Below are positions 49,008 through 52,432 of a stretch of 52,432 nucleotides of DNA, piece by piece. This DNA is from an uncultured Lachnoclostridium sp. GTDB taxonomy: Bacteria; Bacillota; Clostridia; Lachnospirales; Lachnospiraceae. Each line of letters starts with the position of its first letter. The first letter of the stretch is position 1. The notes under the pieces were generated by a model. The model worked only from the letters and a program-made list of their open reading frames with translations. It was not told the DNA's origin and did not search any database. The DNA lies in NCBI GenBank assembly GCA_947178155.1, contig CAMWXG010000003.1, forward strand, positions 1 to 52,432. Direction: 5' to 3'. The translations under genes were made by a program, and so were the position numbers.

Positions 49008-50105
49008 TTATACATTAAAACGGAATAATACTACATCACCATCCTGTACAACATATTCCTTTCCCTCTGAGCGCACAAGTCCTTTTTCTTTTGCTTTAAC
49101 CATGCTGCCCAAATCCACAAGATTATCATAACTTACAACTTCTGCACGAATAAAACCTCTTTCAAAATCAGAATGAATCTTTCCTGCTGCCTGTGGCGCC
49201 TTTGTTCCCATCTGTATAGTCCAGGCCTTTGTTTCCATCTCTCCTGATGTAATAAAACTGATAAGTCCAAGCAGAGTATAACTTGCACGTATCATCTTTT
49301 CAAGTCCTGATTCTTTAAGCCCAAGGTCATCAAGAAATTCCCTGCGCTCATCATCATCAAGCTCTGCAATTTCCTGTTCAATCTGTGCACAAATTACAAA
49401 TACTTCTGAACCTTCCTTTTCTGCATAATCACGTACCGATTTTACATATTCATTATCTGATGCATCTTCTGCAAGCTCATCTTCTGAAACATTTGCAGCA
49501 TAAATTGTAGGCTTATATGTCAATAGATTAAAAGATTCAAGAATATCCCTTTCATCATCATCTACAGGCTCATAACTTTTGGCCATTTTGCCTTCCTCAA
49601 GATGAACTTTAAGTTTTTCAACCAGCTCTGTCTCTTTTACAAGAGTTTTGTCATTTTTAACACTTTTAACAAGTTTAGCATAACGTCTTTCAAGTACCTC
49701 CATATCTGAAAAAAGCAGCTCAAGATTAATAGTTTCTATATCGCGCAATGGATTTATACTTCCATCCACATGAACTATATTGCTGTCCTCAAAACAACGC
49801 ACTACATGTACAATAGCATCAACTTCACGTATATTAGACAAAAACTGATTCCCAAGCCCTTCACCCTTGGAAGCACCTTTTACAAGTCCGGCTATATCTA
49901 CAAATTCAATAACAGCCGGCACAATCTTTGCAGAGTTATGCATCTTAGCAAGCACTTCAAGACGTTCATCAGGCACTGCAACTATTCCCACATTAGGATC
50001 TATTGTACAAAAGGGGTAATTTGCAGATTCTGCTCCTGCTTTTGTAAGTGAATTAAATAATGTACTCTTGCCAACATTGGGCAAGCCGACAATTCCTAGT
50101 TTCAT
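49008..50105 (-). CDS. ychF: Redox-responsive ATPase YchF (OLA1 family)
   Basis: The 365-residue TRAFAC P-loop protein binds ATP in preference to GTP. Motifs are G1 GLPNVGKSTLFN (residues 7-18), NYPFCTIDPNVG, and DIAGLVKGASKGEGLGNQF. A coiled-coil insert (about 130-200) and a C-terminal TGS domain with GFIRAEVVSYDNL follow. It associates with ribosomes and stress responses. GGAG precedes the ATG. It is followed by lgt 68 bp on. Confidence 0.96.
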   Translation of the reverse strand: MKLGIVGLPNVGKSTLFNSLTKAGAESANYPFCTIDPNVGIVAVPDERLEVLAKMHNSAKIVPAVIEFVDIAGLVKGASKGEGLGNQFLSNIREVDAIVHVVRCFEDSNIVHVDGSINPLRDIETINLELLFSDMEVLERRYAKLVKSVKNDKTLVKETELVEKLKVHLEEGKMAKSYEPVDDDERDILESFNLLTYKPTIYAANVSEDELAEDASDNEYVKSVRDYAEKEGSEVFVICAQIEQEIAELDDDERREFLDDLGLKESGLEKMIRASYTLLGLISFITSGEMETKAWTIQMGTKAPQAAGKIHSDFERGFIRAEVVSYDNLVDLGSMVKAKEKGLVRSEGKEYVVQDGDVVLFRFNV

Positions 50106-50399
50106 TTCTCTATTCTCCTTCTAAAATTCCTTTATTTTATGGGTTTTCTGATATACTCTTATCTGCAGATGCATCATTTTCAAACTACATTAAGGGCATC
50201 CGCTACCAATTCGATTCCCTTTATCTTTTTCTCCTCGGTAATGTAAACATATAAATTTATGGTAATTCCAATATTCAAACCATACATCTACAAAATTTAC
50301 CCAATATAACCTATTTTTCTGTTTGGTTATTTCAACATACAGCGTCTTCACTTTTAGGTCTTTTCCATATTTTATAACTCCTTTCAGCAAAAAAGCCAT
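50106..50399. other. Upstream region of ychF with a doubtful small frame
   Basis: A 69-codon minus-strand frame (50399 to 50190) begins MAFLLKGVIKYGKDLKV. It is aromatic-rich, resembles no known protein to me, and has no ribosome site. Its start abuts the element at 50400, so it may be the cut remains of a gene. No promoter is clear. Confidence 0.35.
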
Positions 50400-50614
50400 A
50401 AAGCGTGTTTGAAAATTGCTTTTTATGGGATGTACTCCACAATTTATGGGAGATTTGTACCAAATGAAGGAGGCAATGCGCTGACAAAAATATCAAGCAC
50501 TAAGTATATGGGGATTAAGGAAACGTTGTACTAGCTTAAGTTGCCTGAATTTGGTACAAATATAGCACAAAGTGCGGAGTGAAAACCGTGAGAATGAATT
50601 TTCAAACATGCTCT
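50400..50614. mobile_element. 215-bp MITE-like element with terminal inverted repeats and a long internal hairpin
   Basis: The ends AAAGCGTGTTTGAAAATT (50400-50417) and the complement of AATTTTCAAACATGCTCT (50597-50614) match at 16 of 18 positions in inverted orientation. Inside, ATTTGTACCAAAT (50453-50465) pairs perfectly with ATTTGGTACAAAT (50549-50561), and AGGCAA pairs with TTGCCT (50471-50476 with 50541-50546). It encodes no protein. Fragments of its ends lie at 21149, 43744 and 47998. It may be a small non-autonomous mobile element or a structured RNA unit; no transposase is present in the window. Confidence 0.65.
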
Positions 50615-50676
50615 AATACAGTGACTTATATATTACCATATAACAACTCATAAGTCTATATTCTCTTACCAATTCA

Positions 50677-50705
50677 TTGACATAAGCAACTAAAAACTGT
50701 ATAAT
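50677..50705 (+). promoter_or_regulatory. Perfect consensus sigma-A promoter of the HipA-HD gene
   Basis: TTGACA (50677-50682) and TATAAT (50700-50705) with a 17-bp spacer, 57 bp before the start codon. It is the only fully consensus promoter noticed in the window, so strong expression is expected unless repressed. A search by eye found no clear operator. Confidence 0.8.
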
Positions 50706-50762
50706 AAATCTATCTTATAAAAACGATATCGCATAAACAAAAGGAAAAAGCGAGGTGAAACG

Positions 50763-52432
50763 ATGAGATATACGCTCATGCACAAACAAATCGCCGTAGC
50801 AGACATAGAACTTAACGAAGATACAGGTCTTATACAAAAAATTAATACAGTATATGCACATAAACATCTGCCTGTTGGTGTTACCATACATAAAAACATT
50901 ACAAGCAGAGCGGCTTTAAATGAATGGTGGGAGGATCGTTCAATTCCGTTAAGTCGTTTTGGCATTAACGAAGTTCTTAAGAGCTTAGATATTTCTAATA
51001 CAAAAGTTCTTCTCCCACGCTGTTATGGTCTAAGTCTTTCAGATCAATACTGGATCTGCCCTAAAGAAGCAAATCTCACATGGAAACAAATCAACTTTTT
51101 TGATAATACCTTTTCCAATGATATTGGTGATATATTGTTTGGTGAACAAAAAAAAGCAAAACTTTTTGATTTTAAATCACCGGACATTACCACAAACGGT
51201 GATTTAAAAAAGAGATGGAAAAGCATTAATGGAAAACTGTGTCTTATAAAGGGCGGCTCAGGTCCGTTTCAGCAACAGCCCTTTAATGAATCAATTGCTA
51301 CAGGAATTATGGAACGTCTTGCAATACCACATGTGCCGTATACAGTGATATGGAACAATAAAATTCCTTATTGTGTATGTGAAGACTTTGTAAAACCAAA
51401 TACTGAGCTTGTCAGTGCATGGCACATCATGAAGATGCAAAAAAAGGCCAATGATACCTCTATCTATCAGCATTTTATAAACTGCTGTGAAATGCTTGGT
51501 GTAAAAGATGTAATATCTTTTCTTGACCACATGATTGTGTTAGATTATATCATTGCCAATGAAGACAGACACTTAAACAATTTTGGACTTCTTCGCAATT
51601 CTGAAACACTAGAATGGCTTGGCATGGCTCCAATATATGACAGTGGCAGTTCATTGGGATATGACAAAACTACAGCACAGATTCATGCCACACATAATGA
51701 GACATGCAAGCCATTTAAAAAATACCATACTGAGCAATTAAAACTTGTATCCTCCTTTGATTGGATTGACTTTGACCGCCTTTCAGATGTAGCAGATTTA
51801 ATTAATGAAACATTATCCCAAAATAATGCAAAAGACTATATAGATGAATCCCGCATTAATGCTATATCCTATACAACACAAAAGCGAATACAAAACCTAT
51901 ATAATCTTGTCATGGCACATAAACCATATAAGAAAATGCCTGGCACAGATGATACAGAAAGTAAAACCTTATACTTTATGCATCGCCATAATAGTATAGA
52001 AAACATGAACTTTTGCAGTAAAGAATTCATTGCTCATATCCGAAAAGACAAAGATATTAATTCAAAAGAAATCAATGTAATACAAACAATATCCGAGCAT
52101 TGCAAAAATACCGCCAAATATTGCAGTACTACAGCCAAAACTCTGGGACTTGAAAATTTTGGCTATTATATTGGAATAATGCATGATGCCGGAAAATTTT
52201 CAGACGAATTTCAAGAGTATATTTTAAAAGCAACAAATGGTGAAAATGTACACAGAGGTTCAGTAAATCATACTTTTGCAGCAGCCGCATACACACTTAA
52301 AAAATTTCATGTTGAAGATATATACCAAAAATTAGCGGCAGAGTTTGCAGCCTTTACTATAGGAAGCCATCATGGACTTTTTGATATAAACAGCCTTGAA
52401 AAAAAGAATGGTTTTGAACACAGACTTAATTA
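50763..52432 (+). CDS. HipA-like kinase fused to Cas3''-type HD nuclease (partial, runs off the window)
   Basis: At least 556 residues in one uninterrupted frame, with no stop before the window end. GAGGTG lies 5 nt before the ATG. Residues 1-400 look like the HipA-family kinase of Firmicutes: LIKGGSGPFQQQPFNES (K163), the catalytic loop NEDRHLNNFG (D268, N273), and APIYDSGSSLG (D293). Residues 430-556 look like the Cas3'' HD domain: H446, then GIMHDAGKFSDEFQEYI (H474, D475), NHTFAAAAY (H503) and IGSHHGLFD (H536, H537). HipA kinases phosphorylate proteins such as GltX; Cas3 HD domains cut single-stranded DNA. A Cas3 helicase may follow beyond the edge. No cas gene or repeat array is in view. 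The fusion is seen directly; its function is inference. Confidence 0.85.
   Translation, partial: MRYTLMHKQIAVADIELNEDTGLIQKINTVYAHKHLPVGVTIHKNITSRAALNEWWEDRSIPLSRFGINEVLKSLDISNTKVLLPRCYGLSLSDQYWICPKEANLTWKQINFFDNTFSNDIGDILFGEQKKAKLFDFKSPDITTNGDLKKRWKSINGKLCLIKGGSGPFQQQPFNESIATGIMERLAIPHVPYTVIWNNKIPYCVCEDFVKPNTELVSAWHIMKMQKKANDTSIYQHFINCCEMLGVKDVISFLDHMIVLDYIIANEDRHLNNFGLLRNSETLEWLGMAPIYDSGSSLGYDKTTAQIHATHNETCKPFKKYHTEQLKLVSSFDWIDFDRLSDVADLINETLSQNNAKDYIDESRINAISYTTQKRIQNLYNLVMAHKPYKKMPGTDDTESKTLYFMHRHNSIENMNFCSKEFIAHIRKDKDINSKEINVIQTISEHCKNTAKYCSTTAKTLGLENFGYYIGIMHDAGKFSDEFQEYILKATNGENVHRGSVNHTFAAAAYTLKKFHVEDIYQKLAAEFAAFTIGSHHGLFDINSLEKKNGFEHRLN

Follow-up and report, generated by a model that had tools for sequence, protein, structure and literature searches.

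Does the open frame at the right-hand end of contig CAMWXG010000003.1, from an uncultured Lachnoclostridium sp., encode one protein in which a HipA-family kinase is joined to a nuclease of a clustered regularly interspaced short palindromic repeats (CRISPR) system, and what kind of system would such a protein serve? The stretch analysed here, called the window below, is the entire contig (C3, 52,432 bases) of the draft assembly G000 (2.76 Mb in 228 contigs, 85.9% complete), which is probably derived from a metagenome. In the list of open reading frames (ORFs), a plus-strand frame begins with ATG at 50763, continues for 556 codons to >52430 without a stop and is still open at the contig end. 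Within this single frame, a HipA-family kinase (residues 1–397) runs without a stop into the beginning of a Cas3 protein (from Met415). The joint presence of the kinase and the Cas3 HD domain in the window is confirmed, their fusion is likely to be real, and a coupling of the kinase to CRISPR immunity is unproven. We favour, with moderate confidence, a genuine and probably recent in-frame fusion that placed a HipA-family kinase at the N-terminus of a type I-C Cas3.

The kinase family is known for toxins that send cells into dormancy, and in type III CRISPR systems second messengers link the recognition of a target to cell arrest; we know of no type I system that carries an enzymatic arrest arm on Cas3. 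If the kinase is active, the locus would be a natural example of such coupling by simple fusion; if it is a passenger, the locus would be a snapshot of a cas operon captured by the promoter and start of a neighbouring gene.

Two Enzymes in One Frame

The kinase half (50763..51953, plus strand) is CtkA-like and was assigned by profile matches and by its colinearity with kinases that are separate from Cas3. Pfam HipA_C matches residues 127–338 with 40.3 bits (cut-off 30.5, E = 3.6e-10), and the PADLOC model PDC-M03A, whose PDC prefix we take to mean "phage defence candidate", matches this half with E = 1.5e-23. The nearest solved kinase by sequence is CtkA (3akj, E = 5.2e-7), aligned over residues 174–298; the HipT entries 7ab4 (E = 0.06) and 8ezr (E = 0.3) are weak matches in the structure library. 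The motifs K163-GGS, Q172-PFNE, N175-E176, N266-EDRHLNN (with D268) and D293 are all present, and K163, N175-E176, N266-E-D268-R-H and D293 are presumably the catalytic residues, judging from what is known of the family.

For comparison, we used 19 kinases separate from Cas3, namely those retrieved loci that reach an identity of 40% or more across 330 residues or more, after the removal of duplicates; weaker or shorter ones had been excluded before the count. These relatives are 41–67% identical to the fusion kinase and colinear with it until about D397. The fusion kinase retains 65 of the 66 columns that are invariant across them, with N145 in place of D as the sole departure; the relatives themselves, left out one by one, each showed 0 to 12 departures. 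The G+C content at third codon positions (GC3) is 0.289 in the kinase and 0.269 (sd 0.037) in 33 host ORFs, compared with 0.51–0.66 in four relatives. Because its GC3 is host-like and that of the four relatives is far higher, the kinase has probably long been resident in AT-rich DNA, here or elsewhere, without decay. This composition dates the kinase, not the fusion.

The second half, from Met415 (52005..52432, plus strand), comprises the N-terminus of Cas3 and the beginning of its HD nuclease domain; it is cut by the contig end and probably goes on in another contig of the assembly, C89. NCBIfam cas3_HD (TIGR01596) matches residues 444–549 with 66.2 bits (cut-off 43.45, E = 3.8e-18), and PADLOC Cas3c matches this half with E = 2.7e-20. 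The nearest solved structures to the HD part are two Cas3 entries, 8zns (E = 8e-6) and 8g9u (E = 2.5e-5); glutaredoxin structures (E = 0.001–0.003) matched more weakly and were taken as chance. An ordinary HD phosphohydrolase was rejected, as the HDIG profile reached merely E = 0.026 against 3.8e-18 for cas3_HD. The HD motifs H446, H474-D475, H503 and H536-H537 are present, and we assume from family knowledge that they are the catalytic residues of the Cas3 HD domain. The sequence-only reading of this frame had placed a kinase and a Cas3-type HD nuclease on one polypeptide, with the key residues of both intact, and had preferred Cas3 to a general HD enzyme; with both profiles above their cut-offs, no stop and both sets of motifs found, these points were borne out.

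The Probable Remainder of Cas3 Heads a Type I-C Operon

The same reading had taken the nuclease part for a lone Cas3''-type domain and the whole for a new kinase-plus-nuclease system, and neither view survived comparison with the Cas3 of another genome of the genus, G018 (806 residues). Its first 633 residues match exactly two places in G000, the end of the window and the end of contig C89, and the whole protein is covered by C3 over residues 6–134 (64% identity) and by C89 over residues 134–806 (75%). The two contig ends have six bases in common, TAATTA, which fit in frame; the joint is a putative one, of matching ends on two separate contigs. The cas3 gene is present once in G000, split into these two pieces. 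By this alignment, the HD part would make up the opening ~140 residues of a full-length Cas3 whose remainder lies on C89, and would not be a lone Cas3'' domain. If C3 and C89 adjoin in the way that the alignment suggests, the predicted fusion has ~1,230 residues (556 + 672).

On C89, the order is cas3-cas5c-cas8c-cas7-cas4-cas1-cas2, which makes the type I-C gene set complete. The signature genes score above their cut-offs (given in brackets), with 318.6 (218.65) for Cas8c (Csd1), 244.3 (85) for Cas5c and 326.6 (182.25) for Cas7/Csd2, and so do cas3_core, with 136.5 (102.45), and the adaptation genes Cas1c, Cas4 and Cas2, with 440.8 (385), 118.5 (65) and 76.4 (24.5), respectively. The Cas3 remainder bears the helicase motifs GAGKT, DEVQ, SATQ and QAAGRCNR, whose roles we likewise assume from the family. 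An array on the same contig has 23 repeat copies at 66–69-base spacing, with 22 exact repeat cores; its spacers gave no match in the phage collection. The helicase motifs, further cas genes and repeats for which the sequence-only reading proposed a search were therefore all found on C89. Because the Cas3 remainder heads a complete type I-C operon, the fusion appears to belong to an ordinary type I-C system whose Cas3 gained an N-terminal kinase, rather than to a new system.

The type I-C locus of G018 (contig C51) shows what such a system looks like without the kinase. Its Cas3 is 64–75% identical to that of C3 and C89, the repeat is of the same kind, and cas5c-, cas8c-, cas7- and cas4-like genes, read against the C89 proteins, follow in the same order. 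Unlike the fusion, the 806-residue Cas3 of G018 comes with a leader of its own, and no kinase lies upstream of it.

The Junction and the Signals for Expression

Residues 398–414 (TESKTLYFMHRHNSIEN; 51954..52004, plus strand) form the junction, which was delimited by tail alignment, reading of the other frames, codon G+C content and ribosome-site energies. By a count made by eye, 16 of the 19 kinase relatives bear a related tail, such as DDVEENIAQDY, DDEVEKNIAADY or DVRENIAYHG, and 16 of the 19 end at 402–412 residues, the remaining three at 379, 386 and 422. In the fusion protein, the tail is replaced by TESKTLYFMHRHNSIEN, which is followed by Met415-NFCSKEFIAHIR. Since the unfused Cas3 proteins of G018 and G037 begin with MHKEIKQFVAHIR and MDGMNIADQSFPAHIR, respectively, Met415 is the probable natural start of Cas3. 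The frame would accordingly hold two nearly complete proteins end to end, with the kinase tail alone missing. Codons 401–420 have a G+C content of 0.20 at first positions (GC1) and a GC3 of 0.40, which is not coding-like, albeit over 20 codons only. Because these codons do not look coding and the conserved tail is replaced, the junction is probably former cas3 leader DNA that is now read in frame, which suggests a young fusion.

A sigma-70-type promoter match, TTGACA-N17-TATAAT (50677..50705, plus strand), lies before the kinase. It agrees at 12 of 12 positions and is the sole exact match in the 52,432 bases, in line with the sequence-only reading, which had called it the best promoter in the window. 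Matches with at most one mismatch number four in the window against a chance mean of 1.35, a count that 5 of 100 shuffles reach, and promoter-like sites in 50100–52432 show no excess over chance (9 found, 10.9 expected). The predicted anti-Shine-Dalgarno pairing is −13.7 kcal/mol at M1, compared with −0.4 at M406 and −0.1 at M415; the median for 402 randomly drawn plus-strand ATGs of the window is −0.6 kcal/mol, and the unfused Cas3 starts of G018 and G037 reach −4.0 and −6.2 kcal/mol, respectively. The cas2 gene on C89 pairs at merely −0.2 kcal/mol at its listed start, which is perhaps wrong. As a ribosome site and a perfect promoter are found before the kinase only, with no ribosome site at Met406 or Met415, cas3 most likely depends on the promoter and start of the kinase and is made as a fusion, as far as these predicted signals tell.

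Fusion or Artefact

The obvious rival explanation is that adjacent but separate kinase and cas3 genes were merged on paper, either by an assembly or base-call error that removed a stop or a frame change or by a wrong join; we regard it as unlikely. A number of observations nevertheless weigh against a genuine fusion. It comes from one fragmented draft assembly in which Cas3 starts 428 bases short of the contig end, and the link between C3 and C89 is drawn from homology and a six-base overlap. The junction codons look non-coding, and a GC1 below GC3 at codons 401–420 is equally expected of two separate genes with an undetected one-base error. Read in frame +1, the sequence meets a stop near residue 412, and in frame +2 near residues 396 and 400, all close to where the kinase would naturally end. 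The region 50100–52432 shows no terminator-like site, but only 1.2 would be expected by chance, so this carries little weight. Finally, the fusion was seen in one genome only among the searches run: none of the matches listed for all the genome sets described below, except the window's own, covers both the kinase and the HD domain.

These points are met by others. Neither alternative frame restores the conserved kinase tail, so a simple one-base error is disfavoured; the longest homopolymer in the junction has four bases, the Cas3 start lacks a ribosome site of its own, and G000 holds no cas3 other than the one in two pieces. Within G000, as distinct from the other organisms of the sample, no exact repeat of more than 15 bases is listed elsewhere for the 131 bases around the junction, so there is nothing in this assembly to mislead the assembler. 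Both sides of the junction point to host DNA, the Cas3 side by its match to C89 and the kinase side by its composition and by an upstream repeat. The repeat (~50399..50615, strand not assigned), recognised from self-matches in G000, is dispersed and resembles a miniature inverted-repeat transposable element (MITE), with inverted ends at 50399–50465 and 50549–50615; it corresponds to the adjoining "mobile-type element" of the sequence-only reading. The 533-base query 50230–50762 has 65 matches in G000, its own place counted, and this host-wide repeat ends 147 bases upstream of the fusion ORF. The neighbour of cas3 in G018 has no match in G000, an empty result that shows little by itself.

The 556-residue query gave matches in 48 of 99 genomes of relatives and, by taxonomic rank, in 18 of 28 genomes for the genus, 116 of 397 for the family, 86 of 392 for the order, 36 of 391 for the class and 15 of 398 for the phylum. 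These sets share genomes with one another, and G000 is in every one of them. For the family, order, class and phylum, at most three candidates per genome were scored, at E limits of 1e-10, 1e-12, 1e-15 and 1e-15, respectively. Among the matches listed, those to the Cas3 half lie in open frames of at most 863 residues, against ~1,230 expected for the fusion; for kinase matches, the reported open-frame length is an upper bound only. Two long frames that resembled fusions, G014:C184 (778) and G553:C40 (1128), proved to be separate genes of 361 and 382 residues. Alignments extending past the kinase end in G403 (to 432), G1107 (421), G333 (417), G284 (415) and G635 (409) each run through a stop, and none reaches the HD domain. 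A tblastn alignment at L036 extends to residue 512, but through a stop into a sigma-factor-like neighbour, and with 13 of 48 residues alike (E = 0.003 in a single comparison) it was taken as chance.

Elsewhere, a scan of the contigs of 84,980 species with short exact peptides gave three kinase loci, all separate genes. Viral contigs yielded no relative by exact short peptides and nothing by the junction 27-mer, and none of the 18 plasmid and 9 phage records that matched spans 80% of the query. A conserved kinase–cas neighbourhood was considered and dropped: no cas genes were seen by eye, without a profile search, beside the kinase in eight regions (L031, L032, L033, L035, L036, L037, L038 and L041). 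A second genome with the same architecture, which would define a conserved HipA–Cas3 fusion family, did not turn up in these surveys. The sequence-only reading had held that homologues always encoded as two proteins would refute its proposal, and in every match listed they are indeed separate. This lack of recurrence counts against a conserved architecture; it does not count against the fusion in G000 itself.

Possible Working of the Fusion

Under the genuine-fusion reading, a HipA-family kinase gene would have come to lie directly upstream of cas3 in a complete type I-C operon. Through a deletion or insertion at the cas3 start, the C-terminal tail and stop of the kinase and the promoter and ribosome site of cas3 would have been lost, leaving a single protein. 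Cas3 is recruited to target-bound Cascade. The Cas3 half most likely keeps this normal type I-C interference, in which Cascade would find the target, the fusion would be recruited, the HD domain would nick, the helicase would unwind, and the DNA would be degraded; the intact kinase would be carried along, tethered to the Cascade-bound target DNA. Such a course supposes that C3 and C89 join, that Cas3 is still functional and that the fusion protein stays uncleaved. According to the available part of PMC10256805, Cas3 of type I-E works with APOBEC1 engineered onto its N-terminus, and a C-terminal CDA1 version is weaker; an added N-terminal enzyme thus does not necessarily impair Cas3.

As for what the kinase contributes, it may be a passenger or provide a backup growth arrest, and all such readings overlap with the case of a real fusion. 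It is quite possible, though short of probable, that an accidental N-terminal kinase merely lends its promoter and ribosome site to cas3, is inactive or harmless here and will decay. The single occurrence across the surveys, the lost kinase tail and the leader-like junction would all fit an accident of this kind, but the kinase shows no decay, having no stop and nearly all invariant columns, and its host-like composition suggests that it has spent a long time in AT-rich DNA, whether in this genome or another AT-rich one; this concerns the age of the kinase and not that of the fusion. We place this explanation above a kinase triggered by CRISPR, because the case is single and the junction looks young. 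In the latter, rather unlikely alternative, Cas3 would bring or cluster kinases at targeted invader DNA; once activated, they would phosphorylate a translation factor or similar and slow the cell, as a second defence line when DNA shredding is too slow. The motifs of both enzymes are present, Cas3 has no other ribosome site, and PDC-M03A, which the kinase half matches, belongs to the PADLOC defence library, all of which favours a triggered kinase. An analogy is offered by HipAD/DS-6, which, in the available part of PMC13092281, protects against phage and ceases to do so on mutation of a predicted catalytic residue. Against a trigger stand the architecture, which recurs in no survey, the recent look of the junction and the ORF list, which shows no upstream antitoxin gene even though any synthesis of Cas3 would also yield the kinase.

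In its full form, the idea would be that recognition of invader DNA not only leads to its shredding but also turns on, at that very spot, a kinase that arrests growth; a single protein would then act as a persistence switch guided by adaptive immunity. This we find unlikely. A guard or addiction role seems more improbable still: Cascade binding in the native complex would restrain the tethered kinase, and loss of Cascade would free it to arrest cells that lose or block CRISPR, like the toxin guards of type I systems. It would agree with the lack of a visible antitoxin gene beside the kinase. For a HipB-like antitoxin, there is no plus-strand frame of at least 60 residues at 50255–50762, and the small frames nearby (64 residues on the plus strand, 69 and 91 on the minus strand) lie outside the profile searches. 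This lack is not special, however, since several other kinase relatives, in regions judged by eye, likewise have no obvious partner gene.

Comparison with Known Systems

Cas2-3 of type I-F carries a second domain on the Cas3 polypeptide, which is not a protein kinase. The same can be said, from the parts of the papers available, of Cas5-Cas3 in a type I-B variant (PMC10910872) and of the engineered APOBEC1-Cas3 (PMC10256805). Surveys of CRISPR variants describe nucleases fused to Cas5, Cas8, Cas11 or DinG, in addition to the Cas5-Cas3 fusion, and no kinase–Cas3 fusion was found in the available portions of their main texts (PMC12669027, PMC10910872). Nor was a HipA–Cas3 fusion found in a full-text literature search of the accessible text of open-licence papers, and the words CRISPR, Cas3, fusion and CtkA are absent from the searchable part of PMC8262856. 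An orphan CRISPR upstream of hipAB has been described in Bacteroides fragilis (excerpt of PMC5704556). HipAD/DS-6, a HipA-family kinase in phage defence, is among the closest known systems, but it consists of two proteins, the partner bearing DUF3037/DUF1829, and no CRISPR part is mentioned in the sections available (PMC13092281). CtkA and HipT (3akj, 7ab4 and 8ezr) align with the kinase in part only and, unlike the fusion, have no nuclease part. What would be new here is a kinase domain on the Cas3 of an otherwise known type I-C system.

HipA-family kinases apart from Cas3 occur in Bacillota at 67% (G404), 64% (MT835596.1), 62% (G100) and 57% (JAFSSK010000128.1) identity, colinear and with the same motifs. 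They end in tails such as DDVEENIAxDY followed by a stop, and no cas genes were seen beside them by eye; some carry an extra N-terminal in-frame stretch instead.

Further Observations

The two closest kinase relatives (L064:1207-2739 and L072:5689-7239) are frames of 510 and 516 codons with ~100 extra in-frame residues at the N-terminus (YYYHQWSEKG...), for which there is no Pfam match; at L064, the kinase additionally possesses an ATG and a strong ribosome site of its own. The 64%-identical kinase at L072 (MT835596.1, labelled Bacteriophage sp.) is surrounded by a VirB4-like ATPase and a sortase-like gene, a context that, read by eye, looks like a conjugative element rather than a phage. Two related kinases are also extended, G367 (L089:1100-2902, 600 residues) by ~190 residues at the C-terminus and G547 (L088:1544-3244, 566 residues) at the N-terminus; their extra stretches have no Pfam match, and both score under the HipA_C cut-off. 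Extensions of this kind hint at a tendency of the kinase family towards fusion. On a Selenomonas plasmid (L074:3642-5155), a HipA-family kinase of 35% identity is overlapped at its start, over four bases, by a HicB-family gene; the two look like a mixed-type toxin–antitoxin pair, with the HicB-family gene as the antitoxin-like partner.

At the G018 locus, a divergent gene beside cas3 reads like a DNA cytosine methyltransferase (L034:13493-14920). Its cas1-like frame is a 123-codon remnant that runs into CRISPR repeats (L034:6184-6555), and no cas2 frame is listed, so the adaptation module looks broken. Two CRISPR units at L046:2067-2125 and L046:2470-2528 carry nearly the same spacer (97% over 59 bases). 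Upstream of the fusion, the MITE-like repeat contains a nested piece (~50477-50535, 55–59 bases) that is 98–100% identical on five other G000 contigs.
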